Positions 2,545-29,338 are shown, counted from the stretch's first letter. The stretch: DNA of 30,905 nucleotides from a virus (IMGVR_UViG_3300013099_000058:1-30905), one strand, 5' to 3'. Program-made: numbers and translations. Notes: a model not told the origin generated them from the letters alone.

Positions 2545-2562
2545 GCTATATGGCTTTAAGTG

Positions 2563-2571
2563 TGGTATAAT
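2563..2571 (+). promoter_or_regulatory. Extended -10 promoter before the portal gene
   Basis: TGGTATAAT is a perfect TGnTATAAT extended -10 box in the 54-base gap after the adhesin gene. No TTGACA-like -35 element is seen 17 bases upstream, which extended -10 promoters do not need. Transcription would begin about 2578 and read the head genes. Confidence 0.65.
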
Positions 2572-2598
2572 GCGTAGATTAAATAAAGGACTATGATA

Positions 2599-8651: not shown

Positions 8652-9362
8652 ATGGAATTAGTCAATGAACTAGGTATACTAGGTGTAGGTAGTGCTCGTA
8701 GAGCTTGGGGCACGTTTCTATGTCCTGCCTGTGAGGTAGAAGTAGATAAGCCACTTAATAGTGGTTATCGCAATAAGAGCTGTGGTAATAGTGTCTGCAG
8801 ACGTAGTATGTTTACACCTAATAAAAGCTGTAAAGGTAACACAAAACTGATACCTGACTACTCTCTACCATTTTACTCTTCAATTAAAGAGCGCTACAGG
8901 TTAATTAAACTAGAACATAAACTATGTAGTGAGTGGGGAACTTTAAAAGGCTTCATGGACGATATGTATGACTCATATGTTGAGGCTAGAATCAATTGTA
9001 AGTACCTTGCGTTTAATGTGGATGGTGCTGTGGCTTCTAAAGCCTCATGTATATGGACACCTAAAAGTAAGTACGCTAGATTTGATAAGTTAACAGCTTC
9101 TAAATCTTCGTATGTGTACATTGTGAGTGTTGAAGGGTTTTACAAAATAGGCATGACCAAACGTCTTGCAGATCGGATGGAGGCTTTCAATACCTCTAAC
9201 CCTTATGAAGTAAAGGTAGTCACAGCTATTCCTGTAAGTAATGCTTCTTCCATAGAGAAGAAGCTGCACTTACTATATGCAGAACACAACGTAAAAGGTG
9301 AGTGGTTTAACTTAACAGAGTCACAAGTTGAGGATATTATTAAATACCTTAACGACTTATAA
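8652..9362 (+). CDS. GIY-YIG (MUG113/T5orf172-type) homing-like endonuclease
   Basis: A 236-residue protein. The N-terminal part has four cysteines (24, 27, 44, 49) that probably form a zinc-binding DNA-recognition unit. The C-terminal 85 residues are a GIY-YIG nuclease of the MUG113/T5orf172 type: Tyr154-Val-Tyr156 and Tyr164-Lys-Ile-Gly167 form the signature, Arg175 is the expected catalytic arginine, and a Gly-Glu-Trp-Phe near residue 218 supplies the metal-binding glutamate. Such proteins cut DNA and often behave as free-standing homing endonucleases. It interrupts the head gene order between the capsid protein and the next virion protein, and has a promoter on both sides, as expected for a mobile insertion. 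Cysteine-rich composition also sets it apart from its neighbours. Confidence 0.85.
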   Translation: MELVNELGILGVGSARRAWGTFLCPACEVEVDKPLNSGYRNKSCGNSVCRRSMFTPNKSCKGNTKLIPDYSLPFYSSIKERYRLIKLEHKLCSEWGTLKGFMDDMYDSYVEARINCKYLAFNVDGAVASKASCIWTPKSKYARFDKLTASKSSYVYIVSVEGFYKIGMTKRLADRMEAFNTSNPYEVKVVTAIPVSNASSIEKKLHLLYAEHNVKGEWFNLTESQVEDIIKYLNDL

Positions 9363-11422: not shown

Positions 11423-12373
11423 ATGAGCGGCTTTACTATTATAGACGAAGCTGTAACTATTGAGCTTACAACCAATTGTAACCTTAACTGTAGCTACTGC
11501 TACTTAAGTGAGGAAGCACGTACTGCTAAGTACAGTGCTGTTGAGGTGGGTATTAAAGCCATGAATCATTGCAGGGATATAGTTCGTACAATGAAGAGGG
11601 ACGGAGTTATACTTCGTTCAGTTATGCTACTTTCAGCAGAGCCTACGGTTCTGAATGCAAATCACCTAGCTATGTGTATTAATATATTGAGTGAACGTGT
11701 TGAACACATTCAGATTATGACTAACGGAGTTAGACTTGCAGATGAGGATTACTATAATTCACTTTTTAAGTTAGTGAAAGATGTAAGAGTTACTATAGGT
11801 GTAACTATAGATGGTTATAAGGAACTACATGATGCCGCTAGAGACAATAGTTATGATGACGCTGCTAGCACTGTTGCTAGGTTATATAAAGACAAGAGAC
11901 TAGAGCGCGTTAATATAGTGGTAGGTACAGAGGCTATTAAGGACCCTGAGAGGTTCAAAGCTTGGTATAAGGAGTTTATCCTTGATAGAGGTATTCTTCA
12001 CATAGCGAGCTCCGTAGAGCCTCCTGTGATACTAAGTATGCAGGAGCGTATGGCTATTATAAAGCTACTGCGTGATATGACTGATATGCATGGAGAAGCT
12101 ATTGATACAGACGTTGATATGTGTAGTAATGTACATATACTGCTTGATCGAGCTATAGCTCAATGTACCAATGACTGTGCTACGGTATCAGGTAAGTACA
12201 TTAACCTGGATTCAGACTTTAAACTGTTACTAGCCTCAAGGCAGTATTACACTAAAGTGATGAATGAAGAGTGCAAGACTTGTGATAAACAGGATATATG
12301 TAATGTGCATTGTCATTGGCATACAGCACCTAATGGGTTCGCTTTTAATTGTGCGTATGGTAGGAATGATTAG
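11423..12373 (+). CDS. Radical SAM enzyme with SPASM-like auxiliary cluster domain
   Basis: A 316-residue protein. Cys19-x3-Cys23-x2-Cys26 is the canonical radical SAM motif that binds the [4Fe-4S] cluster reducing S-adenosylmethionine. Later features fit the fold: the Thr-Ile-Asp-Gly-x-x-x-x-His-Asp strand of peptide-modifying members lies near residues 130-141. The C-terminus has Cys284-x2-Cys287-x5-Cys293-x3-Cys297 and Cys310, the exact spacing of the SPASM auxiliary-cluster region, although the usual Gly-x4-Cys upstream is not conserved (Cys248 and Cys252 may substitute). SPASM proteins modify peptides or proteins (for example anaerobic sulfatase maturases, PqqE, sactipeptide maturases). 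QueE is excluded by motif spacing and length. The gene is embedded in, and coupled with, virion genes, so a virion protein is the likeliest substrate. The substrate itself is unknown. Confidence 0.88.
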   Translation: MSGFTIIDEAVTIELTTNCNLNCSYCYLSEEARTAKYSAVEVGIKAMNHCRDIVRTMKRDGVILRSVMLLSAEPTVLNANHLAMCINILSERVEHIQIMTNGVRLADEDYYNSLFKLVKDVRVTIGVTIDGYKELHDAARDNSYDDAASTVARLYKDKRLERVNIVVGTEAIKDPERFKAWYKEFILDRGILHIASSVEPPVILSMQERMAIIKLLRDMTDMHGEAIDTDVDMCSNVHILLDRAIAQCTNDCATVSGKYINLDSDFKLLLASRQYYTKVMNEECKTCDKQDICNVHCHWHTAPNGFAFNCAYGRND

Positions 12374-14099: not shown

Positions 14100-15629
14100 A
14101 TGCAGGGTTTTAATTATACAGTAGACAATGGTCCAAGACGCCAGCTTACACCCGCGTTTCGTGTAGATGCTAACTTAGTTAAGCAATCAGCTACATCAGG
14201 GGCTCTCAACGCTTTTAAACAGTACGAGAAGAACCAGGCAAGAGACGCAACTGCGGAGCAGTTGGCGTTGAATAACGCTAGAGCTGATGAGACTCTTAAG
14301 TTACAGCAAGCTGCTAATACTAGAGCTATTAATGCTGATAGTAGAGCAGCGGCACAGGAGACTGACAGAGTAAGTGCGTTAGCACAGAAAGCTGCTCAGG
14401 AGAAAGCACTGGCTGGTATATATGATAATATGCCTGATAAGCAATTAGTAGATAAGACTGTTGTTACTCAAAAAGCAATACCAGGTACAGTGGACAACTT
14501 AGCTGCGGTGCAGAATGCACAGCGTGCTAACGCTATGACTGCGTTATCACAGGATGCGTTGAACAGTGGTAGATTCTCTATGCCTGCTGTGGCACCAGGT
14601 AAGGTACTGCCAAGTACGATACCTACCCACCCGCAGTCGAATGCGCTTGGGGACAGGGTTAAACCTGGGGTTGTGTTAAAACAGTATCCACAAGTGTACG
14701 GGGAAAGTCCCCATACATACTATGAAACGGCTGATGGTGAGGAGATGAGCTTAGTAGGTAAGTGGCTAGGTGGGTACGAAGAGGTTGACAACTTTGATAG
14801 GGTAAATCCTCTAGGTACAGAAACTAACCCTGTAGCACCTAACGTAATACGTGAGATTGATGTTGTTAAATCACCTGCTAAATCGAAAGAAGATACTACT
14901 AAAGACGATTACATTGCGAAGCAATTAGTAGCACTTGATAAGCAATTGAAGAAAGTACCAAAACGTTCAGTAGGCACTAAAGGTACCGCTGCACAGACTA
15001 AAGTTGTACAAGAAGAGATTGCTATGGATAGAGAAGGCAGGTTACAATACCTTGCAGATACTATTAGAGCTGATAAGACACTTACAGGTTCGGCTAAGAT
15101 AAATGCACTTAAGAACTTAGAGGTAATGGTACCTGAGACTAAGTCTGAGAAGGAAGCTGCACGTAAAGCGCGTATTAAGTGGGATGCTGAGACTCAGCAG
15201 CAGATTAAGGCTAAGTACGCTTCTAAGACTCCTACAGTATCTGAGCAGATAGCAATGCAGAAATACGCTGCAGGACTAGTTGATGAGGCTACCACGGTTA
15301 CCGAGTTAAAGAATATACACCCTAAGATGCCTGCTACAATTAAGACTCTCAAAGGTGCTGAGGCATATATTGCTAAAGTCAGTAAGAAACCTAAAGGTTC
15401 TTTTAACTTAGCCGAGTCTATGTACAGTGGCCTTAGCGGTAAGGATGCCGAGGATACACAAGCTGTTACTAAGTTCCTTAAAGATAATGCTAAAGCACTA
15501 AGTGCTATGAGCGCTGGGGAGCAAAAAGCTCTTGTGGCTAGGTATGTAGCGCAGTACTCTACTGAGAGTGGGTGGGATCCTACTGACTTCGTTGGTGGCT
15601 CTGCCGCTGGAGATGCCTTCAGTTACTAA
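14100..15629 (+). CDS. Helical internal virion protein (509 aa), hypothetical
   Basis: A protein of 509 residues from the ATG at 14100. A longer reading from 14049 would overlap the preceding gene and begin with an unlikely Arg-rich stretch, so 14100 is chosen, with coupling across a one-base gap. Residues about 25-110 are coiled-coil-like (Ala, Gln, Lys, Asp), residues about 115-260 are Pro/Gly-rich and extended, and residues about 270-470 are again helical with Lys. No cysteine and no enzyme motif are seen. Its position right before the three giant proteins suggests an ejected or internal core protein. Confidence 0.7.
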   Translation: MQGFNYTVDNGPRRQLTPAFRVDANLVKQSATSGALNAFKQYEKNQARDATAEQLALNNARADETLKLQQAANTRAINADSRAAAQETDRVSALAQKAAQEKALAGIYDNMPDKQLVDKTVVTQKAIPGTVDNLAAVQNAQRANAMTALSQDALNSGRFSMPAVAPGKVLPSTIPTHPQSNALGDRVKPGVVLKQYPQVYGESPHTYYETADGEEMSLVGKWLGGYEEVDNFDRVNPLGTETNPVAPNVIREIDVVKSPAKSKEDTTKDDYIAKQLVALDKQLKKVPKRSVGTKGTAAQTKVVQEEIAMDREGRLQYLADTIRADKTLTGSAKINALKNLEVMVPETKSEKEAARKARIKWDAETQQQIKAKYASKTPTVSEQIAMQKYAAGLVDEATTVTELKNIHPKMPATIKTLKGAEAYIAKVSKKPKGSFNLAESMYSGLSGKDAEDTQAVTKFLKDNAKALSAMSAGEQKALVARYVAQYSTESGWDPTDFVGGSAAGDAFSY

Positions 15630-15686: not shown

Positions 15687-18600
15687 TTGAGCAATATTGA
15701 TATAAGTAAATATTTAGCAGATGCACAGATTGCTGCAAATGATGTATATAACAACTCCTCACAACGTAAATCAGACAGACTACAAGAACGTACCGCTTCA
15801 AAGCAGGAACGTATAGGTACTTATGATAACCTAGTACAGACTGGGTATTTTGACCCTACTCAAAGCGTAGTGTCTAGTAACAACTTCAGAACCATAGACG
15901 GTGACACATTTGATCTTGGGCGAGATCATAGTACACGTATACTCGGTTCAGATACCTATGAGTCTACTAAGTCTAACTACAGTCAGTGGATAGCTGACCC
16001 TAAGAACCAGGATAGGATGAATAGACAAGTTGCTGCACTAACTGCAGCCACTGGTACACCTGCTACATACGCTGATGTCTTCGCTGCTGGTGATAAGCAG
16101 AAAGCAGAAGCCGATGCGGTCCTCCATGGCAACCTTCCCGTAATGCTTCAAGAAACTCTCCTACAGAATGCTGGTACACACGTAATGAAGAACGGTAAAC
16201 CTGTTAACTACGGCAGAGATCTAGGACATTACACCACATTAGGTGGGCAGTACTCTAATCCTGATGGTACTACTGGTAATGGTGCTATTGAAGTACTAGG
16301 AAGTAATGAACAGCAAGCGTTGGCTGATATGCAGAAGTATGGTACAGCTAAGTACGCTGGAGATACTTCTGAACATACAGCTGCTAACTTTGTACCAGTT
16401 ACGTCAGATGATGGCTTCTTCGATAGCCTTCTGAGAGTTCCACAGGCGATGCTGGCAGGAGCTGGTAAGAGTACCTATGATTTAGCAGATACAGCAGTTG
16501 AGGCTGTTGGTAACATTGCTGCACGTGGTGCTGAAGCTACAGGGTTTGACTCTATTGCGGACACCGTAGATAAAATGGATATTGCTACTGACAAAGAGAA
16601 GACTTCCCAGGTTAACTCCCTTATAGGGTACGACAACAAACACTCAGATAGTATTATGAAAGAATCAGGAGATAAGTACGTTAAGGCTATGAAAGATGTT
16701 GATCTATTTAGCCCTTCTACTTGGGGTAATATAGATACTGAGGCGCTAGGGGATTCAATCACTACTGCACTCTCTACTCCAGAGACAGCAGGTTATAGTT
16801 TTGGGTACTTAGCACCTGCTCTTATGGGTATACTTGAAAAAGGTGCGGTTAAACTGCTTAGTGTTGCCGGACAGCAAAGTGCTAAGAAGGTTGCAACTAT
16901 AGCGTCTAGTAAGACGTTATCTAAGGCTGCTAAGCGTAAACGTATTGCAGCAACTACTAGGAATATGTCATTAACTGATAAGTCTAAGATGGTACTAGCA
17001 GATCATGCTGATGCCCTTGGGTATGGTGCAATGATGACCAATGACCAACTAGATGAAGTTATGGTAGCTAACGGTGGTGAGAGAGAATCTCTATTTAAAG
17101 TCGGTTCAATGCTTGCACTAAACGCGGCAGGTATGAAGTTAGATATGGCTTCTGCTAGGGCTATAACTACTGGGCCTGGTGCTGCAGATAAACTAGTTAC
17201 AGCTCTAAAAGGTATGGGTAAAACTAAAGCTACACAGGTAATGGCGGCAGTAACTGCGTACGCTGCTAAGTTAGGCGCTGCCGGGTTAACGGAGATGCCT
17301 CAAGAGTTTACACAGTCATACATAGAAGCATTCAATAAGGCGTACGGAGTTAAGCAAGCTGATGGTACTAAAATGTCAGCTAAAGAGGCTGCGTTGTCAG
17401 AAGAAGTTCGTACAGAGGCTGGTCAAGGCGCTATAGCAGGGCTTACCAGTGCACCATACATGACGGCAGGTGCCTCAGTCGTAGGAAAGGTAAAAGAAGG
17501 CTTAGGACTAGCTGTAGGTAAAGCAGGGGAGAGCCTACAAGCACGTAAAGATGCTAAGGCTGTAGACACTGGTTGGAAGACTCCTGAGAGCATTCCTGAT
17601 GAAGATCTAGGTAGTGCTGTTGAAGCAATACATGAGGCTGAAGCTGGTATAGAAAGAGATGAAGAGCAGCCTTACAATAGAGAAGCGCATGCAGCTGCAG
17701 TTGTTAAGATTGACGAGAGAGAGGCTCCTATAGCTGAGTTAGATACAGATGATGTAGCCAACCTTCAAGAGGGCCAAACAGCTGAGATACTTCAAGAGAC
17801 TGCTAAAGGGTTTGACCATGACTATGCTATGGGTATGGAAGTACTTAAAGAGCAAGCAGCTATGGCTGTTGATAATGGTATTACAGATGTACACCCTAAC
17901 TTCGTGGAATTTGTTAAGCAAGGGATAGGAGGGTTGCAGGCTGATGCTGATGCCGTACTCGCAGCTGGTGGTACTAACAAGGCCGCAGCTATGCAGGCTA
18001 AGATAGATAGACTTATACCACTACTTACTGCTAACACTACACAGGAACTCAGTGCTATACTGAATGCACCTGGTATGGACGATAATACTAAGATTGCCCA
18101 GATAATGGGTAGTTCAGCTACTAGTACAGAGGATATAGATAACATCCTTAAAAGTACAGAACCTACAGAGAAGCAGAAGAAGTTACTAGAGTTAAAAAGA
18201 CAGACTATTATAGATGTTGCTGGCGTTAAGGAACAGAAGCTGACTGGTGGAGGAGCTAAGCCTGGTGTTATGCAATGGGCTGCAATGCTTATGGATGGTA
18301 AAGAGAATCCTGCTGCTATTAAACGTATTAATAACTTTGCAGATGGTCAGAGAACTAAGCTTAAAGAGTTTCAGAAGGTTATAGATGACTGGGATGTTAC
18401 GAATGGTATGGAGTGGACTAAAGAAGGTAATACCAAAGTGTATCCTCACAGTGACACTACACTACAGAATAAGATGCACTTACGTTCTAACTCTTCCATA
18501 AATTCTAAGTTAAGCTCCCCTATTACTTATAAGGGTAGTACTTATAAAGACATAGGTACTATTGCTAACCTAGCTAATGAAATGGAGAACGAACAAGTAA

Positions 18601-19667
18601 GACTAGATGAGTTACAGGCACTAGCTAATGATACGTCACCAGCAGCACAGCAAGGTGCCCAGGAGACACAAACAGGAACTAAGGGTAAAGATACTAGTGT
18701 AGCACCTGTAACGCCTTCAGCGCCAGCTGAGGATGCACCTGGTACTGGTGAAGGGCCAATGACTGGACAGGAACGTAGGGATAACCAGAACGGTAGCATT
18801 GCTAGGGACATTGCCAGTGGTAATGGTATAGCTAAAGATGACTTCCAACACTACGAGGCTAATAAGGCTGCGATAGATGAGTTAGTTGCTAGTATTAATG
18901 AAGCTAACAAGCCTACTGTAGAGGATCCTGTAGACACGTCACCAGAGACCCCTACGGAGCCCGTGAAGGCACCGGAGAAGAAACCTGAGGTAAGTACTCC
19001 TGTTAAGCCTGATAATGGCACTGACACCAACAGTATAACGTTAGAAGAAGCTAAGGCTTGGAAGAGACCTAAGATGCCTGACTGGTTAACCCCTGGTAAG
19101 GTAAGTAATTGGAATAAGGCAGTTGAAGAACTTGGAGCGGCCTATAAGAAGTTACCTGGTCTTGTGTACATGGCTGATAGTGGCAGGACTGCTGCTATGA
19201 GAAGGGATGCTAAAAAAGAACTAGATGCCCTCAACAAAAAGATCACAGCACGTAAGAATACTATTCAAACTCTAATGAAGAAGCCTAAGAAGTCTGATAG
19301 ACAGAATAGGATTGAGGATGCTGGCATTGAAAACTCTACCACTACTACCGATCCTGAGCAGGCTGCTAAGGATGTTAAGAATGCTATGAAGGGAGATCCT
19401 GTTAAGGTTAAGGAAGAAGATGCTGAAACTATAACAGAGCTGGACAAGGACTACGTGAGCCCAGACATAGACTATGCTGCTGAGATAGCTAAGCTGGATG
19501 CTAAAGAAACACCGGTTAAAAAGCAACCTACAACAGAAGATGCTATAATTGCACCAATAGAAGAAGACTCTACTACGATTGTAGAGAGTATAAACACAGA
19601 CCTAGACGCTATATTCAATTCATTTGAAACCGACGCTGTCGATGGTACTAAACCTTGCGGGATATAA
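15687..19667 (+). CDS. Giant virion protein A: N-terminal part of split vRNAP, SNase-like motif
   Basis: 1326 residues from a TTG start, with AAAGGATAT (15677-15685) directly upstream. Residues 70-92 match the staphylococcal-nuclease active site: Ile70-Asp71-Gly-Asp73-Thr74, Arg84, then Asp89-Thr90-x-Glu92 (compare SNase Asp19/Asp21, Arg35, Asp40-Thr41-x-Glu43). Tyr175-Gly-Arg177 could be the second catalytic arginine (SNase Arg87), after a longer insertion. Residues about 368-395 and 577-610 are hydrophobic or amphipathic. Pro/Thr/Glu-rich linkers lie at about 980-1030 and 1075-1110. The only cysteine seen is Cys1324, third from the end (Cys-Gly-Ile). Protein B follows one base behind the stop. 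By order and size it corresponds to the N-terminal third of the N4 vRNAP polypeptide. That equivalence is inferred. Confidence 0.7.
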   Translation: MSNIDISKYLADAQIAANDVYNNSSQRKSDRLQERTASKQERIGTYDNLVQTGYFDPTQSVVSSNNFRTIDGDTFDLGRDHSTRILGSDTYESTKSNYSQWIADPKNQDRMNRQVAALTAATGTPATYADVFAAGDKQKAEADAVLHGNLPVMLQETLLQNAGTHVMKNGKPVNYGRDLGHYTTLGGQYSNPDGTTGNGAIEVLGSNEQQALADMQKYGTAKYAGDTSEHTAANFVPVTSDDGFFDSLLRVPQAMLAGAGKSTYDLADTAVEAVGNIAARGAEATGFDSIADTVDKMDIATDKEKTSQVNSLIGYDNKHSDSIMKESGDKYVKAMKDVDLFSPSTWGNIDTEALGDSITTALSTPETAGYSFGYLAPALMGILEKGAVKLLSVAGQQSAKKVATIASSKTLSKAAKRKRIAATTRNMSLTDKSKMVLADHADALGYGAMMTNDQLDEVMVANGGERESLFKVGSMLALNAAGMKLDMASARAITTGPGAADKLVTALKGMGKTKATQVMAAVTAYAAKLGAAGLTEMPQEFTQSYIEAFNKAYGVKQADGTKMSAKEAALSEEVRTEAGQGAIAGLTSAPYMTAGASVVGKVKEGLGLAVGKAGESLQARKDAKAVDTGWKTPESIPDEDLGSAVEAIHEAEAGIERDEEQPYNREAHAAAVVKIDEREAPIAELDTDDVANLQEGQTAEILQETAKGFDHDYAMGMEVLKEQAAMAVDNGITDVHPNFVEFVKQGIGGLQADADAVLAAGGTNKAAAMQAKIDRLIPLLTANTTQELSAILNAPGMDDNTKIAQIMGSSATSTEDIDNILKSTEPTEKQKKLLELKRQTIIDVAGVKEQKLTGGGAKPGVMQWAAMLMDGKENPAAIKRINNFADGQRTKLKEFQKVIDDWDVTNGMEWTKEGNTKVYPHSDTTLQNKMHLRSNSSINSKLSSPITYKGSTYKDIGTIANLANEMENEQVRLDELQALANDTSPAAQQGAQETQTGTKGKDTSVAPVTPSAPAEDAPGTGEGPMTGQERRDNQNGSIARDIASGNGIAKDDFQHYEANKAAIDELVASINEANKPTVEDPVDTSPETPTEPVKAPEKKPEVSTPVKPDNGTDTNSITLEEAKAWKRPKMPDWLTPGKVSNWNKAVEELGAAYKKLPGLVYMADSGRTAAMRRDAKKELDALNKKITARKNTIQTLMKKPKKSDRQNRIEDAGIENSTTTTDPEQAAKDVKNAMKGDPVKVKEEDAETITELDKDYVSPDIDYAAEIAKLDAKETPVKKQPTTEDAIIAPIEEDSTTIVESINTDLDAIFNSFETDAVDGTKPCGI

Positions 19668-19668
19668 T

Positions 19669-22600
19669 ATGAGCTGTACAACATTTAAAGATTTAAATAC
19701 AATAGAATTAACACTTAATAATAAAGTATTAAAGGGTAACGCTAAAGACGCTACACCTAAAGTTAAGGCTGAAGGAGAGGCTGCTCAGAGAGACTTAGCA
19801 AGAGTTGAGCAAGCTAGAGAGTTACTAGAACAGCAAGCGTTCTACGATGACCTAGGTGTTACCATAAACGAGGCTGTATTATCCGTAGCTGATGACTTTA
19901 CTGAGGAGTATGAGAGTGATCCTGAGTACATTAAGTTACAGGAAGAGTTAGAGGCTATTATGGCTAATAAGACTGCAGCTGTAAATAAAATACTTAAAGC
20001 AACATACTACAATTCAAATAGTAAGTTCGGTAAGGTTAAAGGGGAGTATAAAGATGGTAAGTTTCAAATAGAGAATGCCGCTAATTATAATGAAACTCTA
20101 GACTCTTGGATAGATGGTAAGAATGAGTACATAGCTTCCCAGCAAGAAGCTGTTGAGAAGTTTAACTACATCTTAGCTAACTCTCCGAAGCTATCTGCAG
20201 ATAACAGAGCAGCTGTTGAGAGTAAGAAGTTTGATACTCAGGAGTCTATAAAGAAGGCCCAGGGTAAAGTTAAAGAGTGGGGAGGCTACAAGGCTTCTAA
20301 TGAGGCTAGAGCTAAACAAGCATCTAAGAATGTCAATGCTAAAGCTAAGGCCTTAGAGGAGAGTAAGGCACAAGCCGCTGCACTACAATTAAAGAATATA
20401 GAGATAGAGGATTACAAGGCATCTAAGACTGCAGGTGCTAAAGTGTTAAACACTGCCCCTGGTAACCATGGTTCTAGACTTAGTGATTTCTTAAAGCCTA
20501 AAGTTGTATTCAATAGGCTTAAAGAATACACTAATAATATAAGTGCTGCATTCACATCAGCTATGACATCTGCTATGTCTATTATGGAAGTGAAGGCTGT
20601 TAAGAACTCAGAAGCTATACTCACAAGAGTTGTAGCAAATGTAGAGGCCTCAGTTAAAGAGTACATGAATAAAGATATGGCTATTATAGATGTAGCTTAC
20701 CCTAAGGTTGGTGAAGGTTACCAAAGTATCTCCCAGTTATTACTAGTAGATGGTAAGCTAAGTGATGAAGTAACTTTAGCTATTGCTGTTGCTTCTACTG
20801 AATGGATGGCTAATGTGTCTTCAATGAGAGCAGGGCACCGTACTGAAAAGGTTGCCAAGCAGTTGCTTAAGAAGTCTGCAGGAGACTCTATGACACCAGC
20901 GGAATGGGATGCCATAGCTGATGTTGATATGTTTTTAACTACAGCTGCTAACTCTTTAGGTGCTGATATATCTAAGATAATTGGATGGTCTATAGATTTA
21001 GAGAATGATCCAGAAGCTGATCTAAAGAAAAGAAAGCTAGATAATGAGTTGGGACTAATTGCCCTACATGCACTAGCTCGTACTACTAAGGATAAGGACG
21101 GTAAGAAAGTACCTGGTATTATCACTATTAAGACTAAGGATAGTGCTGACATATTTGTTAAGAATAACACACTAGTTGAGAACGGTAGAAGTCGCCAGCT
21201 CAATGTAATAAAGTTTACAGCTAAAGGTAATGCGTATTTAGACAATAAGTCTGGTATTGCTTCACGTACAGCAAGGCTAATCTCGGATATATTTAATACT
21301 GAGAAGAAGTTGAAGCCTCCACGAGGTGCTAAAGCCAAGAAGAAGGTATTCAAGAATAAGTCTGGTATTCAGAATAAGCATACTACAGTTAATCCTACAG
21401 TACAGAGTGGCTTAAATGCTGCACAGAATGTTAAGTGGAACTGGAATGATGACTTTATAGGTGATGTGTTCCTAATGCTTGAAGATGAGGCCGGTAGAGA
21501 ACGCTTAGAGAAGTTAATGGGATATGTAGATCCAGCAACTAAGCACGTTAGGTACGCTAAGGCACTTACTTCTGAGAACAACAGGATTAAGAGAGAGATA
21601 ACAGAGCTTGAGGCTGCAAGAGCAGAGGCTATGCGTAAGGGTAATACATCAATATTCTTTGACTACTTTTATGGTAAGAATGGTAGAGTTTATGTAGAGA
21701 CTAATACTCTTAACCCTCAGCTATCTAAGTTACAGCTAATGGCCCTCTCATCTGAAGAAGGTGTAGTAACATCTGATAGAGATGTTGATATGTATGATAA
21801 AGCAATGGCTGGTGCATTTGGAGTTAAAACAGATAAGTTAACTTTACAAGATGATGTTAATGGTACACCAGGTATATTAACTACTTGGGCTAAGACCGAA
21901 GCTAAGTTACAAGAGCTAGAGATAAATACATTAGGCCTTGAAGATGCTATTACAGCTGTTGAAGACTACAATAGTGCTATTGATAGTAATAAAGATATGA
22001 GTAAAGCTGAGAAGAAGGCTGCTAAGATTGGTGGCTATGGCCCGCTACTTTTTGCAGGATTAGTTGAGTATCGTAAGTATGCTAATGCTAAAGCACTAAA
22101 TGGTAGTACTAAAGGGGTTAACCCTACTATTATTATGGAAGTTGATGGTGTTACTAATGGGTATGTACTTAAATCACTACAGATGCCTCTATTAGATGAT
22201 ATGAAGACATCACTGCAAAGTGGTGGGGTTATGATAGGTACTAGGTTTGATAAGAAGCCTAAACTAAGTAAGTACCAAGTGTGGGAGCAAGATGCAGAAG
22301 GTACTAGTGGAGTTATGTTTGAGTACGGAAGTACTACACAGCAGATAATGGATCCAAGTACACTAGATGCGTATGAAGTGCCTGCTAAGAAGATGGATGT
22401 GATGTTTCAAGCTATCTTTGGCAAGAAGAACACACAGCCAGAGTCTCTTAAAAGGTTTGCAGAGTTAGCTACATCGTCTAGCTTGTTTGCACTTAACAAT
22501 GACGGTAGTACGGAAATGCCTGAGATTACTAGAGAGTTTATGAAGCCTCCGTTTATGACGTTTAACTACGGTGCTGGTATGACTGGTATTATCCAGGATA

Positions 22601-24243
22601 TGGCTGACACTACCATAGATGAAGTATACAGCCTTTTAGAGCAATTACATGCAGCAGAGTTAGCTAATGATAAAGATGCCTCTAAGGCTCTTACAACACG
22701 CCTTGAGGCACTGTTTAGAGCTAGTAATGATACATGGGTTAAAGGTGAGAAGGGCTGGGAAGCTACTTCTACACCAATTGATTCAGAGCAGTTAATTAGA
22801 GAGTTACATACAGCTATAAGTAACGGTACTTTACTGCAGTTTAATATACCTCAGCCAACAATAGATGCCATGGGCTCTAGTGTTAAGGCTAGTGTAGGTG
22901 AAATGGTTAAGGAAGTATTCCAAGACTATAAGCCATTCATTGATGCGTCTACTACGATTAATGATTCATTTAAAGTTATGTTTAGATTGTTTAAAGCTAG
23001 ATTAGATGATGCTATAGAGTTTAGAGAGAAAGAGTTAAGTAGACCTCTTACAGAGAATGAAGTAGATGCAATTATCAGTGTACTAGGTGACTCGATGCCA
23101 GCTATTCAAACAGCACTTGCTGAAGGTGCTAAGGATAATCTAATTATTATGGACGAGTCTGCATCATTAGTTGATGCTGGTGAGGACGGAAAGATTACAG
23201 GTCAGACTAAGTATAGATACAACACTGCAACTGCTACTGCTCGTAATAAGACTAAGATTAACGCGTTAGAGCAGAAGCTCGCTACTGCTGCGAAAGGGCC
23301 TGAGTACAATAAGATTGCTGCAGAGATTAAGACCTTAAAGAACGGCTACACCTCTTCACAGGCTAAGCAGTACATATTGATTGAAGCTATGGCAGCTGGG
23401 TCAGTTATCCCTATTCACTTTATAGATGGTGTGTTAATGGCTAGTACGTTATCACAGACTAATGGCATGGGTAATCACGATGCTGTATATGAGTCGCCAC
23501 TAAATGTAGATCAGACTAGTAGCCACTACGATATGAAGATGGCACAGATAAGTAAAGAGTACAGTTTAACTGCTGAGATACTTAAAAGTCTCATATCAGC
23601 TATTAATAGTGCAGAGCCTGGACAGGTTAAGAAAGTTAATGAGCAGTACTTAGTAGAAGCGTACGATGTAACTAATAGTACAACTGTGCAGTCTGTAATT
23701 AGTGACATGAAGGACTTATATAGAAACTCAGAGAGAGGGCGTACAGAGGTATTAAGTAACCCTATACGTTACGACCACTTAGCTAATGAAGGTGGACACT
23801 ACGATTGGAATATGAGTGGGGAGGACTACGTAACACCTCCACTAGGTGCTAAGCTTTCATACAAGTTCTCTCAGGCTGATGAAATAGAGATGGAGAGTAG
23901 TACGTTTACAGACTCTGCTTTTGTAGAGATGTCATACCCTAAAAGTAACAATCCTGACAGAGTTAACCGTAAGAACACTGTTAGTTCAGTAGCTAAGCTT
24001 GGAGGCAAGTATATAGTGCATGTTGATGGGTGGGGTAACGCTGCGATTGTTGATGGCAAGACTGGGTTAAACAAGACTGGTAAGGTTAAGTTTGATATAG
24101 CGGAACTGGAGAGGCTACTTAAGATAGCACCGGTAGATCCTGCTATAATACCAGTTAAAAATAAAGCTACGTTAGATGGTTATAGTGATGCAGCAACAAG
24201 TGCAGCTCAAAGTATACTAGATAACGCGTGTGGGAGTAAGTAA
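19669..24243 (+). CDS. Giant virion protein B: virion RNA polymerase, N4 vRNAP-like catalytic part
   Basis: 1524 residues from the ATG at 19669. A longer reading from 19624 overlaps gene A and is rejected. It has the phage-type single-subunit RNA polymerase motifs in order. The Gly-Arg motif is Gly672-Arg673-Val-Tyr with Asn-Pro-Gln behind it. Motif A is Asp826-Gly-x-x-x-Gly831. Motif B is Arg955-x3-Lys959-x3-Met963-Thr964-x2-Tyr967-Gly968. Motif C is His1270-Asp1271. The two catalytic aspartates are thus Asp826 and Asp1271. The distances are wider than in T7 RNAP and nearer to those I recall for N4 vRNAP. The enzyme would be injected with the DNA and transcribe early genes. The first 600 residues are helical and lysine-rich. 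Only two cysteines are seen, Cys3 and Cys1521 (four from the end). No N4-like polypeptide of 3500 residues surrounds it. A and C take those places. Confidence 0.9.
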   Translation: MSCTTFKDLNTIELTLNNKVLKGNAKDATPKVKAEGEAAQRDLARVEQARELLEQQAFYDDLGVTINEAVLSVADDFTEEYESDPEYIKLQEELEAIMANKTAAVNKILKATYYNSNSKFGKVKGEYKDGKFQIENAANYNETLDSWIDGKNEYIASQQEAVEKFNYILANSPKLSADNRAAVESKKFDTQESIKKAQGKVKEWGGYKASNEARAKQASKNVNAKAKALEESKAQAAALQLKNIEIEDYKASKTAGAKVLNTAPGNHGSRLSDFLKPKVVFNRLKEYTNNISAAFTSAMTSAMSIMEVKAVKNSEAILTRVVANVEASVKEYMNKDMAIIDVAYPKVGEGYQSISQLLLVDGKLSDEVTLAIAVASTEWMANVSSMRAGHRTEKVAKQLLKKSAGDSMTPAEWDAIADVDMFLTTAANSLGADISKIIGWSIDLENDPEADLKKRKLDNELGLIALHALARTTKDKDGKKVPGIITIKTKDSADIFVKNNTLVENGRSRQLNVIKFTAKGNAYLDNKSGIASRTARLISDIFNTEKKLKPPRGAKAKKKVFKNKSGIQNKHTTVNPTVQSGLNAAQNVKWNWNDDFIGDVFLMLEDEAGRERLEKLMGYVDPATKHVRYAKALTSENNRIKREITELEAARAEAMRKGNTSIFFDYFYGKNGRVYVETNTLNPQLSKLQLMALSSEEGVVTSDRDVDMYDKAMAGAFGVKTDKLTLQDDVNGTPGILTTWAKTEAKLQELEINTLGLEDAITAVEDYNSAIDSNKDMSKAEKKAAKIGGYGPLLFAGLVEYRKYANAKALNGSTKGVNPTIIMEVDGVTNGYVLKSLQMPLLDDMKTSLQSGGVMIGTRFDKKPKLSKYQVWEQDAEGTSGVMFEYGSTTQQIMDPSTLDAYEVPAKKMDVMFQAIFGKKNTQPESLKRFAELATSSSLFALNNDGSTEMPEITREFMKPPFMTFNYGAGMTGIIQDMADTTIDEVYSLLEQLHAAELANDKDASKALTTRLEALFRASNDTWVKGEKGWEATSTPIDSEQLIRELHTAISNGTLLQFNIPQPTIDAMGSSVKASVGEMVKEVFQDYKPFIDASTTINDSFKVMFRLFKARLDDAIEFREKELSRPLTENEVDAIISVLGDSMPAIQTALAEGAKDNLIIMDESASLVDAGEDGKITGQTKYRYNTATATARNKTKINALEQKLATAAKGPEYNKIAAEIKTLKNGYTSSQAKQYILIEAMAAGSVIPIHFIDGVLMASTLSQTNGMGNHDAVYESPLNVDQTSSHYDMKMAQISKEYSLTAEILKSLISAINSAEPGQVKKVNEQYLVEAYDVTNSTTVQSVISDMKDLYRNSERGRTEVLSNPIRYDHLANEGGHYDWNMSGEDYVTPPLGAKLSYKFSQADEIEMESSTFTDSAFVEMSYPKSNNPDRVNRKNTVSSVAKLGGKYIVHVDGWGNAAIVDGKTGLNKTGKVKFDIAELERLLKIAPVDPAIIPVKNKATLDGYSDAATSAAQSILDNACGSK

Positions 24244-27200
24244 TGGCATGTAATACTAAACAGGAAACTATAAATAAGTTAACAAAGGTTCTAATGAAGG
24301 ATCTTAAAGCAACTAATACAGGAATGTCACATAGTGATATTAAAGCTAAAGCTACTACAGATGCAGAAGCGTTAGTGGCTGCTAGTATTGCAAACATGGA
24401 AGAAGATTTTGCAGATGAAGCAGACGCCCGTAATGCACTCCCAGGTGGAGCTGTGCAGGAGCTTAATGCTGCTAACCCTAAGGTTGGTAAGGCAAAGGTT
24501 ACTGTTACTGAAGTGAATAATGGGCAGGTGTATGTTAAGTTCCCTAATGGGACTAAAGAGTACCCTTATAGTCCAGGTGAAGTAGCACTAGACCAGAAAA
24601 GCACTGAAGGTGTTATAAATAAGTATATAGGTTCATCTGATACAAGTACAGAGGATACATTCCAAGATACTTATGTAGATAGTGATGGGTCTATGAATAA
24701 GTCAGCCAACCTGAATGAAGAGTTCGTAGCTCAAGATAAAGTTAACAACGGTGTGAACTTTGACACAGATCATAGTGAGCATTTAACAGGTATACTTGAG
24801 AGAATGGTAGCTATGGTAAACAGCTTACAGGATGGTAAGGTTAAGATTCGTAAGAAGGCTATGGAGAAGGCTATTAGAGAGATGGGTGCATCAGGTTCCC
24901 TTAATACTAGCACTGGTGAAGTAAGTGTTGATATGGATACACATGGCCCAGGAGCTGAGTTCAGAACTAAGTTTAGCATGGGTAACCAGGAAGTGTATGT
25001 TCATGAGTTAGTGCATGCTGCTATGAACTTCATGTTTGATAAGAGTAATTTAAATGTAGCTAAAGATCCAGAGCTTCTAGCTATGATTACAAATCTTGAG
25101 AATCTACATGCTAAGGCTAGAAAGAATAGTAAGTGGCAGGACTTGTTACCAGGGTATGAGAACAAGAGTCAACAATACTCTAAGAGAGAAGTAGCCCAGG
25201 CTAAGGGTTACAAAAATAAGCATGGTGACTGGGTACAGGGTAAGTGGGACTACATATTCAATAACAAGACACCAGGTAATGGGTTACATGAGTTCATGGC
25301 TGGATTACTGACTAATAGCGCCTTTAAGGAAGCTATGGAGAAGGTAAGTACTTTAGACCTTAAAGCGGATAAGGCTGACGAGAAGTTAGTTGAGAAGATA
25401 CAGAACTGGTTTAACAATATACTAGAGAAGATATTTGGGTATGCTACTAATAAGAGAGATAACAGTATTACTAAAGAAGGTACCAGATTAATATTTGATA
25501 TTATGAGAGCTAACAGTAATGCTGTGGATAGAGTAGCTAGGAAGAGTCCTATGGAGTCTGTTAACAAGGCTTTAGATAAAGCTGCTGCTAAGATTGAAGT
25601 AGCTAATGATCAAGTGAAGAAGATAACTGATCCATTTGTAACACTAGGAGGCTTCCTAGATACTGCTATAGCGAATAAGAGTGAAGTATTAGATGCGAAG
25701 GGTGTAGAGGAGTTTGTTAAGCTACAACGCAAGGTGGCGAAGTTAGTCAACAGGGGAAGAGAGGCTAAGGATGGTAAAGGTTTAATAGGCCTTATGAATA
25801 ATGTAATTACAACTATTGATGCAGTACAGCGGCTACTGCGAGCATTGCCATCTATCTATAAGATGAATAAGTATGCACAAGGTTCTAAGGCTAATAAGAG
25901 TATGGGCAAGGCATTTGAGAAAGCTAATAACATGCTACTAGAGTCTATACACTTAGCACAAGATGGTATGGTACGTGGAATTGTTAGAGACTTTATGGAT
26001 AAGCCAGGTATATACAACTATTTAGCAGACTCAATACTAAGATTAACTAAGAGTGTAGATAGTGCGCGTGAGGCTGCTTATGAAGGAACACTTAAAGGAC
26101 TTAATGATGGATTTGGTGATGTAAGTATTGCTAATGATATAGTTAATAAGAAGCACAATGAGGCCCTTACAGACGTCGTACTACGTACAGACATACAAAG
26201 CCTAGGGTTAGATGCAAAAGACCTTGAGGAGCTTCTACGTGATCCTGGGGAGGTATCTCAAAGAGTAGCTGAACTTGAGCAAGGTTTGAGCTATGAGCAG
26301 ATACAAGATGCTGAGTCATTAGCTAATTATATGGTAACTGGTGTAGGTACTGCTAGTAATGCTTCTAATATTGCTTCTAAGTTTGGGCATGATAGACCTA
26401 ATTTAGATATGGATGCAGCTACGATAAAGCAGATAGATCAATTAGTTAGTTATAAAGCATTAGAGATGACGCCACAAGAGTCTAAAGAGACTCTAGCTAG
26501 CTTCTTAGCAGGAGAGCAATATGTAGACTACTCTACGTCACTATGGAATAGAGCACTTAAGAAGTCACAACTATCATCTAAGACTCCTCTTAGTAAGAGT
26601 GAGTACAAGAAGCAAGTACTAGAAGGTACACAGCACTTCATAGATAGAAGTAGAGGCCTGCAGGCAGCTTCTGAGAGAGAGATGCGAAGTAACCCTCATA
26701 ACGCTATAAAAGGCTATGTTAAGGATACGTACCAATCTGATGCTTCATTAGAGATGCATCCTATTAAGGATATGCAGAAGTTAGAGAGAGAAGGTTTTAA
26801 GTTTGTAAGACCACTTAAGGCAGTACCAGGTACTAACACTATATATGGATTATATGTAAGTACAGTCCCTGCTGTTAAGAGAGCTAATGGTGCATTAGGG
26901 CTACAAGATAGAAAGTCTAGAGGATTCACATTACAGGATGTTATATCTAGAGAGTCTGCTAATGATACTACTGGAAAGTGGGATGGTATTAGAAAACATG
27001 AGGCTTTTAGAAAGTTATTGAAGCAAACTAAAGCAGATTACAAAGAGAATAAAGATGTAGGTATGAGCCCTATGTATGATCAATATGGTAATATAATTAA
27101 CTTTAGAGCTACAATGAGTATAGCTGAGAAGCAAGAGCATTTAGATCTAGAGACTAGAGGTACTGAGAATCTAGCTAGATCATATAGTACTATGGGAACA

Positions 27201-28574
27201 GCTGCAACAACTGATAGACATAATAGAGAAGTGATTGATTTATTGTATAAAGATTTCTTGGACAATTATAAAGAGAATAGTGAGGATTATGTAGTTATTA
27301 AGCCTGATGACTTAACTGCTGAGGATTATGGGATGCCTATGGCGACAGCTCCACAGAGTGTTGAAGAGTACAGCCGTTTATGGGCTAGACTGCCTAAGGG
27401 TGCTAAGCAGTACGCTACAGAGAAGTTTCAGGGTAACCAGATAGTTATTAAGAAGGAATTGCTACAGGTAGCGTTCGGAGAGGATAATTATAGTATTACA
27501 CAGAGCAAGTTATTAGAAGGTTTAAAGCCGAGTACACTAGCTACACTTAAGAAGGTGGAGAGTGTTTGGCAAGATACTATGCAGATAGCTAAGTCTAATA
27601 TTGTTATTAAGACTCCTGAGGTACTTTTAGGTAACTTGGTGTCTAACTTTAAGATACTACTGTACTTAGGAATTCACCCTGTTAAAGGTGCTAAGTTAAT
27701 GTTAACTGGTGCTAGGGAGTTGAAGAAGTATGAGGCCGATAGTAAAGAGCTGGCTAGTGCTTATAGGAATAAGGATGCTGGTGTTGATGTAAGTGAGAGT
27801 TATATTAATGATTTGAAGAGGTCATTACAGCAGAATACTGTAACGCCGTTAATGGATGCTGGTTTATACCAGTCTATTGTGGAGGATGTTAATACTGCTA
27901 ATGAAAGTAATCAAGTAGCTAAATGGTTTAGTGATAAGACTGATAGATACATTACTAATGAGACAGCAAATACTGCTATTCAGTACTTATTCATGACTCA
28001 ACGTACTAAGCCTTACCAGCAGTTATTGAAAGCCACTCAAGTGAGTGACTTCTATTTTAGATATGCACAGTACTACAGTGCTATTGATAAAGCGGATACT
28101 GGGTTAGATAATGCTAATACTTTAGAGGAAGCGTATACACAGATACTAAAACATACGTCACCTGAGTTTAATAGTAAGTTAACTATGGATGAGACTGGCT
28201 TAGCTAAGGTTAAGGCTGATCCTAAGTATAGGGAAGCTTTTAAAGCCAAGGCTATGAGAGATGCTATAGATAACTATATTAACTACGAGGCACCTCTTGA
28301 GAAGCATATCCGGTACGGAGATGCTATGGGTACTTGGTTCTTTGTTAAGTACTTTGTGAAGTCACAGAAGGTTATTAAGAAGTTAGTTAAAGACAATCCA
28401 CTTAGAGTAGGTGCTGATATATTAGCTCAAACGTTTATTACAGGTGATACTGCAGATGTACTTGATTCTAGTATTCTAGATAAAGGTTTAAATACGTATA
28501 ACCCACTTAAAATAGTTAGTAGGTTAGGAGAGTTTATCGACCCTTCACTGCGTGGAGTGGTGTCTAATATTTAG
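24243..28574 (+). CDS. Giant virion protein C: C-terminal part of split vRNAP, zincin motif
   Basis: 1443 residues. The ATG overlaps the stop of B (TAATG), with GGGAG 6 bases upstream. Residues 254-258 are His-Glu-Leu-Val-His, the HExxH zinc-protease motif, preceded by a strand (Glu-Val-Tyr-Val). His349-Glu350-Phe-x-Ala-Gly could supply the third zinc ligand as in gluzincin-like domains of large polyvalent phage proteins. The remaining 1100 residues are mostly helical, Lys/Glu/Ala-rich, with a hydrophobic stretch near residue 1140. The only cysteine seen is Cys3 (Met-Ala-Cys). It takes the place of the C-terminal part of N4 vRNAP, which I recall being needed for packaging the polymerase. Protease activity is unproven. 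Possible targets are the host periplasm, the scaffold, or A and B themselves. Confidence 0.7.
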   Translation: MACNTKQETINKLTKVLMKDLKATNTGMSHSDIKAKATTDAEALVAASIANMEEDFADEADARNALPGGAVQELNAANPKVGKAKVTVTEVNNGQVYVKFPNGTKEYPYSPGEVALDQKSTEGVINKYIGSSDTSTEDTFQDTYVDSDGSMNKSANLNEEFVAQDKVNNGVNFDTDHSEHLTGILERMVAMVNSLQDGKVKIRKKAMEKAIREMGASGSLNTSTGEVSVDMDTHGPGAEFRTKFSMGNQEVYVHELVHAAMNFMFDKSNLNVAKDPELLAMITNLENLHAKARKNSKWQDLLPGYENKSQQYSKREVAQAKGYKNKHGDWVQGKWDYIFNNKTPGNGLHEFMAGLLTNSAFKEAMEKVSTLDLKADKADEKLVEKIQNWFNNILEKIFGYATNKRDNSITKEGTRLIFDIMRANSNAVDRVARKSPMESVNKALDKAAAKIEVANDQVKKITDPFVTLGGFLDTAIANKSEVLDAKGVEEFVKLQRKVAKLVNRGREAKDGKGLIGLMNNVITTIDAVQRLLRALPSIYKMNKYAQGSKANKSMGKAFEKANNMLLESIHLAQDGMVRGIVRDFMDKPGIYNYLADSILRLTKSVDSAREAAYEGTLKGLNDGFGDVSIANDIVNKKHNEALTDVVLRTDIQSLGLDAKDLEELLRDPGEVSQRVAELEQGLSYEQIQDAESLANYMVTGVGTASNASNIASKFGHDRPNLDMDAATIKQIDQLVSYKALEMTPQESKETLASFLAGEQYVDYSTSLWNRALKKSQLSSKTPLSKSEYKKQVLEGTQHFIDRSRGLQAASEREMRSNPHNAIKGYVKDTYQSDASLEMHPIKDMQKLEREGFKFVRPLKAVPGTNTIYGLYVSTVPAVKRANGALGLQDRKSRGFTLQDVISRESANDTTGKWDGIRKHEAFRKLLKQTKADYKENKDVGMSPMYDQYGNIINFRATMSIAEKQEHLDLETRGTENLARSYSTMGTAATTDRHNREVIDLLYKDFLDNYKENSEDYVVIKPDDLTAEDYGMPMATAPQSVEEYSRLWARLPKGAKQYATEKFQGNQIVIKKELLQVAFGEDNYSITQSKLLEGLKPSTLATLKKVESVWQDTMQIAKSNIVIKTPEVLLGNLVSNFKILLYLGIHPVKGAKLMLTGARELKKYEADSKELASAYRNKDAGVDVSESYINDLKRSLQQNTVTPLMDAGLYQSIVEDVNTANESNQVAKWFSDKTDRYITNETANTAIQYLFMTQRTKPYQQLLKATQVSDFYFRYAQYYSAIDKADTGLDNANTLEEAYTQILKHTSPEFNSKLTMDETGLAKVKADPKYREAFKAKAMRDAIDNYINYEAPLEKHIRYGDAMGTWFFVKYFVKSQKVIKKLVKDNPLRVGADILAQTFITGDTADVLDSSILDKGLNTYNPLKIVSRLGEFIDPSLRGVVSNI

Positions 28575-28590
28575 GCAGTTGTAACCTTAA

Positions 28591-28621
28591 CTCTACCTTA
28601 ATGTGAACTTTAAGGTTAGAG
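28591..28621 (+). terminator. Stem-loop behind the late operon
   Basis: CTCTA-CCTTAA (28591-28601) pairs with TTAAGG-T-TAGAG (28610-28621), an 11-bp stem with a one-base bulge and an 8-base loop, 17 bases after the stop of C. AACCTTAA at 28583-28590 can compete for the same right arm. The lack of a T-run makes it an imperfect intrinsic terminator or a 3'-end protecting hairpin. Confidence 0.45.
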
Positions 28622-28628
28622 GTGTAAA

Positions 28629-28748
28629 ATGTGTAATAAGGGATACGTAGTATTCCTTATACTTCTTATAAAACTAAAATCCTCTAATTTCCCTGTATTT
28701 ATCTGTCATATTCACCTATTTAGGCTTAAGGTTAAGACCGCATATTAG
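28629..28748 (+). CDS. Possible 39-residue hydrophobic peptide
   Basis: ATG at 28629 follows GAGGTG by about 5 bases and opens a 39-codon frame with a hydrophobic run (Val-Val-Phe-Leu-Ile-Leu-Leu-Ile) at residues 7-14 and two cysteines. Codon choice differs from the late genes, and the frame overlaps a strong stem-loop (28636-28660). It may be chance. If real it would be a tiny membrane peptide expressed at the end of the late transcript. Confidence 0.22.
   Translation: MCNKGYVVFLILLIKLKSSNFPVFICHIHLFRLKVKTAY
28636..28660 (+). terminator. Second stem-loop behind the late operon
   Basis: ATAAGGGATAC (28636-28646) pairs with GTATTCCTTAT (28650-28660) over 11 bp with one G-T pair and a GTA loop. 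A T-rich but broken stretch follows. Together with the previous hairpin it probably ends late transcription. Confidence 0.45.
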
Positions 28749-28815
28749 TGTGTAGAAGGCCGTAAAGTCCCGTAGTAAGGGAAGTAGCCGGCTTAAGCTA
28801 GCACAGTGTTTAGCG

Positions 28816-28824
28816 TGGTATACT
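28816..28824 (+). promoter_or_regulatory. Extended -10 promoter of the structured intergenic region
   Basis: TGGTATACT is identical to the box at 8623-8631 before the endonuclease gene. The palindrome at 28829-28843 starts 5 bases downstream, about where transcription would begin. A similar but weaker TGGTATACG occurs at 28889-28897. Confidence 0.5.
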
Positions 28825-29161
28825 CTTCGTAAACTGAGTTTACTCAGCGCGTGTAAAACACATAGAAGTAGTGTTAATTAAGGTGTAGTGGTATACGATT
28901 CATACAGGTACCTAGGAGGCTTAGAGAGCTCAAGACGATGAATCATACCAGGTAAGGTGTAAAAGTTGCTTAGAGGTAAGCTATGGAACTCCTAAGAGGT
29001 ATTAAGCTGCCACCAGGTTTCTAGGAAGAGCTGTCCACAATTTATAAAATATGGTGAGTGTCTTGTATATATGTAAGCACTAGGTGTTTAAGGAAACTCC
29101 CTCAAAACGCACGGGATACCGTGTACTTTACAATTACTAGGGTAGTGCATGGTTGGAGTAG

Positions 29162-29181
29162 TGTGAATAAGTTGTGAATAA
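29162..29181 (+). other. Two DnaA-box-like sites, 11 bp apart
   Basis: TGTGAATAA occurs at 29162-29170 and again at 29173-29181. Both match the DnaA-box consensus TTATNCACA on the opposite strand. The 11-bp period puts them on the same helical face. An A+T-rich stretch follows (29182-29207). A replication origin or a DnaA-responsive site is possible. Confidence 0.4.
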
Positions 29182-29200
29182 CTTAAGCATAAAACTGTAT

Positions 29201-29224
29201 AAAAATTAGGCAGTTAGCTGCTTA
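29201..29224 (-). terminator. Intrinsic terminator of the helicase operon
   Basis: Read on the - strand, TAAGCAG and CTGCCTA form a 7-bp stem with one G-T pair and a 4-base loop, followed by a T-run (the A-run at 29201-29205 on the + strand). The stem overlaps the stop codon of the 38-residue ORF, so this is the end of the leftward transcript. Confidence 0.7.
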
Positions 29225-29338
29225 CTTATTAATCATAGCTATTTCATTAATCATGCCTATCACTTCCTCTAAAGTATAAGTGGTAAGTAGTTCAGTAATT
29301 ATTTTGCCTAGTAAGTGTATATCTGTAGAGGATGTCAT
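29222..29338 (-). CDS. Small ORF coupled to the helicase, 38 residues
   Basis: The ATG overlaps the helicase stop by ATGA, and GGAG lies 8 bases upstream inside the helicase end. The 38-residue peptide is helical and Leu/Ile-rich, with the look of a short amphipathic helix (Leu-Leu-Gly-Lys-Ile-Ile-Thr-Glu-Leu-Leu and a Glu-Glu-Val-Ile stretch). The intrinsic terminator begins at its stop. Overlap, ribosome binding site and terminator together support a real gene. The function is unknown, perhaps a helicase-associated peptide. Confidence 0.6.
   Translation of the reverse strand: MTSSTDIHLLGKIITELLTTYTLEEVIGMINEIAMINK

Follow-up and report, generated by a model that had tools for sequence, protein, structure and literature searches.

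It is still not understood how a protein of at least 3,500 residues passes a phage tail. The virion RNA polymerase (vRNAP) of phage N4, gp50, has been described as beads on a string, and about four copies of it pass through a tail channel of ~35 angstrom (PMC12633501). It is also known that vRNAPs are free of cysteine, for which earlier authors proposed periplasmic disulfide formation, or a hindrance of tail passage by disulfides, as the reason (PMC3715699, PMC3915230). The window analysed here, a viral fragment of 30.9 kb (IMGVR_UViG_3300013099_000058, 30,905 nucleotides), raises the question of how such a protein could act as one string when it is encoded in pieces. A preliminary description of the window had proposed that a giant vRNAP is cut into N-terminal, catalytic and C-terminal chains, here called A, B and C, and had made no mention of cysteines at the junctions.

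The ORF check showed that the coordinates and frames given there for the three genes were correct, as were the single base between the stop codon of A and the ATG of B, the TAATG overlap of B and C, and the total of 4293 residues (Table 1). Each ORF has its own start and stop, and a single polypeptide of ~3,500 residues is not encoded. A longer TTG start for B at 19624, proposed by the ORF caller, is unlikely; we preferred the ATG at 19669 because a Met-X-Cys start at this place is common to the relatives. Chain C contains an HExxH motif at residues 254-258, within C1. The polymerase genes sit in a structural cassette, after the genes for the portal, the capsid and a candidate ejection protein, with matches to PHROGs 1216 and 1357 for the portal and the major head protein. 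Based on its position, the upstream neighbour is likely the second ejection protein; it is cysteine-free if translated from the ATG at 14100, an inferred start, and the matching gene lacks cysteine in nearly all relatives. N4-type polymerases are packaged in the virion, ejected into the host and read the early genes from single-stranded hairpin promoters; the early region lies outside the 30.9 kb covered here. Three further regions of the window are recorded here. Directly after the major capsid gene, the C-terminal part of the product of 8652-9362 (+) matches phage families including a homing endonuclease, and this protein is possibly a homing endonuclease within the cassette, perhaps of the GIY-YIG type judging from its motif pattern. 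A radical-SAM protein with a cysteine-rich C-terminus is encoded at 11423-12373 (+), inside the cassette. Finally, ~750 bases without a clear gene (28575-29330) separate the polymerase genes from a convergent helicase gene, and neither an Rfam family nor unusual folding was found in them.

Table 1. Features of the split vRNAP locus, in positions of the window.
Feature	Position	Strand	Description
Upstream neighbour, candidate second ejection protein	14100..15629	+	assigned by position (place of N4 gp51)
Chain A	15687..19667	+	1326 aa, TTG start; N-terminal module of virion RNA polymerase
A Cys1324 codon	19656..19658	+	..TKPCGI-stop, third residue from end; upstream half of junction 1
Chain B	19669..24243	+	1524 aa, ATG start; catalytic T7/N4-type RNA polymerase
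B Cys3 codon	19675..19677	+	MSC..; downstream half of junction 1; invariant
Motif A Asp826 codon	22144..22146	+	invariant in 24 vRNAPs
B Cys1521 codon	24229..24231	+	..NACGSK-stop; upstream half of junction 2; invariant
Chain C	24243..28574	+	1443 aa; C-terminal module (C1 + C2)
C Cys3 codon	24249..24251	+	MAC..; downstream half of junction 2; invariant

When we compared the chains with known proteins, Pfam alone was insufficient, giving a weak N4_RNAP_helical match for B and none for A and C, and a direct PDB sequence search with B returned no match, so that PHROGs, profiles and folds were needed. B and C both matched PHROG 2206, 'virion RNA polymerase' (9.9e-66 over profile positions 865-1891 and 9.8e-117 over 2217-3379, respectively), in the right order along the profile, and A had no match among the PHROGs. 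When 24 vRNAPs, among them intact ones of Schitoviridae, were aligned (positions offset by 329), R673, D826, R955, K959, Y967 and D1271 proved invariant, and five B chains all share G968 and H1270. The catalytic residues had been assigned rightly. For B residues 330-1324, modelled with AlphaFold (mean pLDDT 69, pTM 0.63), the best solved match is the N4 RNAP domain (9pnq, E 2.1e-18, TM 0.61), followed by the N4 mini-vRNAP crystals and T7 RNAP; B is therefore folded like the N4 RNAP domain. The flanking chains had also been expected to correspond to the N4 flanks. For C this held directly, since its profile matched residues 2697-3444 of N4 gp50 in the PDB at ~1e-47. For A the direct comparison with the N-terminus of N4 itself gave no match, and the link runs through intermediates: the A-chain profile hits the part that precedes the RNAP in the fused chains of AD45-like phages (1.2e-14) and a short stretch in the N-termini of intact Schitoviridae vRNAPs (1.9e-7), which in turn match the N4 N-terminus (1.1e-15).

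Fused relatives, whose existence the preliminary description had taken as a check, were found at both levels. Alteromonas phage AD45-P1, like many relatives from metagenomes, has A and B as one chain of ~2,400-2,900 residues, and A, B and C form one chain in Schitoviridae. Since relatives carry these modules in one, two or three chains, the three genes are parts of a single ancestral string, and the split of the virion RNA polymerase is confirmed. In N4 gp50, the N-terminal domain, the RNAP and the C-terminal domain are linked flexibly at 907-1006 and 2104-2123 (PMC12633501). The A|B junction of the window aligns to ~982 of gp50 and the B|C junction, across relatives, to ~2115-2280, where the alignment is loose, which places the cut sites in the N4 linkers or close by.

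The cysteine-free character of vRNAPs does not extend to A, B and C. Their 4,293 residues contain four cysteines, A Cys1324, B Cys3, B Cys1521 and C Cys3, all located at the two junctions. Each lies at most four residues from a chain end that faces another chain, and the free ends, the start of A and the end of C, have none. Besides Met1, Cys3 is the sole invariant residue of B before residue 295 and Cys1521 the sole one after 1387; in C, again besides Met1, no residue other than Cys3 is invariant before 181.

We then examined this pattern in 31 split loci with 44 junctions, which include AD45-P1 and loci from IMG/VR scans and are mostly metagenomic; as the loci are related, the 44 junctions are not independent observations. 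On the upstream side, a cysteine is present within the last four residues at 44 of 44 junctions. On the downstream side, it is found at residues 2-4, in each case residue 3 or 4, at 42; at the remaining two, counted from the called start, it is residue 6 and residue 10, which become 3 and 6 when inner ATGs are used. Elsewhere in the split chains there are three cysteines in 117,985 residues (C666 of locus L009, C371 of L012 and C1274 of L051), a count that leaves out two cysteines of L044 lying before its probable true start. Neither the free N-terminus of A nor the free C-terminus of C ever carries a cysteine. The pattern tracks the number of chains: inserted middle chains (L029, L051 and L055) have cysteines at both ends, two-chain relatives have a single pair, and fused A+B chains lack cysteine where the junction used to be. 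In AD45-P1, AB ends with ..SKHCKQ before the stop codon, C starts with MTIC.., and there is no other cysteine. Among 300 control ORFs of the same loci, in which cysteine makes up 0.9% of residues, a cysteine was found in the last four residues of 27 (9%), at positions 2-4 of nine (3%) and at both ends of none. No cysteine occurs in the 66,472 residues of an initial set of 20 unsplit vRNAPs, which includes those of N4, LUZ7, S6, JA-1, Pollock and R7L, and in a larger unsplit sample 67 of 72 chains have none, four have 2-5 and one, L030, has 25, indicating that cysteine avoidance was lost there. L030 (1-13104) and L154 (761-13399) are fused single-chain vRNAPs within the split clade. We rejected the idea that the terminal cysteines merely result from the ribosome-binding site or from stop-start overlap, as they are kept across gaps of 187 and 613 bases. 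As a separate observation, L047 contains an in-frame TGA at 1105, in the region of polymerase motif C, with the frame running on to a C-terminal ..NCKK and stop, which may reflect an error, readthrough or recoding.

N4-type polymerases were thought to avoid cysteine for the sake of tail passage, and the exception described here supports that rule: cysteine returns only where the chain is cut, which points to end-to-end joining by disulfides and to passage as a linear string. Based on these observations, we suggest that A, B and C, the N-terminal, catalytic and C-terminal modules of an N4-type giant vRNAP, are quite probably joined head to tail by two terminal disulfides. The bonds would link A Cys1324 with B Cys3 and B Cys1521 with C Cys3 (A-S-S-B-S-S-C), giving a linear string of ~4,290 residues in the order of the fused polymerase and holding the modules at 1:1:1. 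Because the cytoplasm is reducing, the bonds would have to form late, the cysteines being oxidised probably in the finished virion, or else during entry, in the host periplasm. Cysteines so close to the termini would leave almost no side branch, which would suit a joint, single-file pull through a tail channel of ~25-35 angstrom. After entry, the reducing host cytoplasm could open the bonds and free the polymerase from its flanking modules; since the C-terminal domain of N4 inhibits the N4 RNAP (PMC12633501), such a release might even activate the enzyme, which is speculation. The sequence forbids none of the wrong pairings (A-A, C-C, A-C or ring closure of B), so that correct pairing would need contacts between domains. 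A search of the relatives for a phage oxidase of the Erv/Alr sulfhydryl-oxidase type, run without a positive control, found none, and a thioredoxin-like gene is present in the AD45 group only.

Here, we need to consider whether the three genes, or their cysteines, could be explained otherwise. One gene broken by frameshifts through sequencing or annotation errors would imitate a split, and the GenBank record of AD45-P1 (NC_021532.1, 1606-13288) indeed has no CDS there and is annotated 'potential frameshift'; the region nevertheless holds two intact genes. Clear frameshifts do occur in some of the vRNAPs from metagenomes (L070, L083, L120 and the A|B gap of L073). However, their breaks look different, since in L073 and L083 the frame continues open in another frame, those of L070, L083 and L120 lie inside domains, and none of the frameshifted genes carries junction cysteines. 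We accordingly rejected L073 as a cysteine-less split, its frame being open across the gap, and also PA152, whose split exists in the annotation only and stems from opposite-strand miscalling. The true splits are found repeatedly, in 31 loci, and lie between domains; their chains have their own starts, with gaps of up to 187 and 613 bases, and this recurrence refutes the artefact, to which we assign practically no probability. The tight coupling of the window junctions would also fit programmed frameshifting or reinitiation, the functional product then being a fused polyprotein. This reading is very unlikely, since junctions are spaced by anything from -11 to +613 bases and share no slippery site, while the cysteines are always kept.

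The other two explanations accept the separate chains and give the cysteines another role. The RNAP and the C-terminal domain of N4 form a tight non-covalent complex (PMC12633501), and other modifications of terminal cysteines are possible; A, B and C might likewise be non-covalent subunits, with the cysteines serving a metal, anchoring to a virion protein, or a lipid at Met-X-Cys. However, the single pair in two-chain relatives is too small for the usual four-ligand metal site, which makes a site of four cysteines unlikely, and no conserved His or Cys was found near the junction cysteines of the split loci. The cysteines stand solely at ends that face another chain, and the middle chains, with one at each end, also argue against a metal, anchor or lipid role. 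We thus consider non-covalent subunits improbable, while leaving them a small share. The radical-SAM enzyme of the cassette, whose gene lies upstream of the polymerase genes, could in principle crosslink the ends by a thioether or another carbon bond, but no homologue of it was found in 12 relatives in which the junction cysteines are retained, in a search without a positive control, or in the phage collection, and such a role is hardly probable.

Most of the splits group together in a tree built from the C-terminal module. On a larger tree, the split or unsplit state has to change ~3 times, A|B ~3 times and the extra middle chain ~4 times, counts that are approximate given the recombination of beads. 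The neighbours of L029, L051 and L055 that lack the middle chain mostly have one junction and one cysteine pair. A metalloprotease-like bead with HExxH is a free middle chain in L029 and L055, whereas in L003 and L020 it forms the N-terminal part of B and in L043 that of C; from these differing places, beads seem to have been swapped between chains along with the terminal cysteine. The middle chains, L029:13197-14423, L055:7361-9691 and L051:7520-9445, lie between AB and C and have HExxH-type motifs, and that of L055 shows a further pattern resembling 2H phosphoesterase motifs. In L012 (1536-10001), chain B has 2821 aa and carries NADAR and AAA_30/PIF1-like helicase domains, suggesting that the ejected string can carry additional enzymes. 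New modules, e.g. metalloprotease-like beads, could be added or swapped simply by means of a cysteine at each end.

Taken as a whole, we lean towards an undescribed kind of assembly, in which cysteine-ended, swappable modules would be clipped together by disulfides, pass through the tail in single file and be separated by cytoplasmic reduction; the balance is only slightly in its favour. It would be a possible design for building very large injected proteins out of modules. The absence of cysteine from vRNAPs was already known, and the split and the junction cysteines are apparently unreported: we found no report of either in the open-licence literature, and an earlier report elsewhere is possible.

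Compared with known systems, the polymerase described here has the same three modules, order, catalytic residues and fold as N4 gp50, the vRNAP of Schitoviridae, whose flexible linkers coincide with, or lie close to, the cut sites seen here. The difference is that gp50 is a single cysteine-free chain of 3,500 residues, whereas here there are three chains with cysteines at chain ends only. The Alteromonas phages AD45-P1 to P4 share the split vRNAP with a cysteine on either side of the junction, in two chains (AB + C) instead of three. Schitoviridae have genomes near 59-80 kb and the N4 core gene set; the relatives with a split vRNAP include genomes of 90-119 kb as well as AD45, which is not placed in Schitoviridae. 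T7-type single-subunit RNA polymerases share the catalytic fold and motifs A, B and C, but they are single compact chains that are not packaged in the virion. With regard to the bonds, inter-chain disulfides join virion proteins in the particle of the tailed phage crAss001 (PMC10172136). Disulfides between different virion proteins were seen there, and we infer them here; in crAss001 they lock parts of the tail and portal vertex, whereas in the present virus they would join the chain ends of an ejected cargo.
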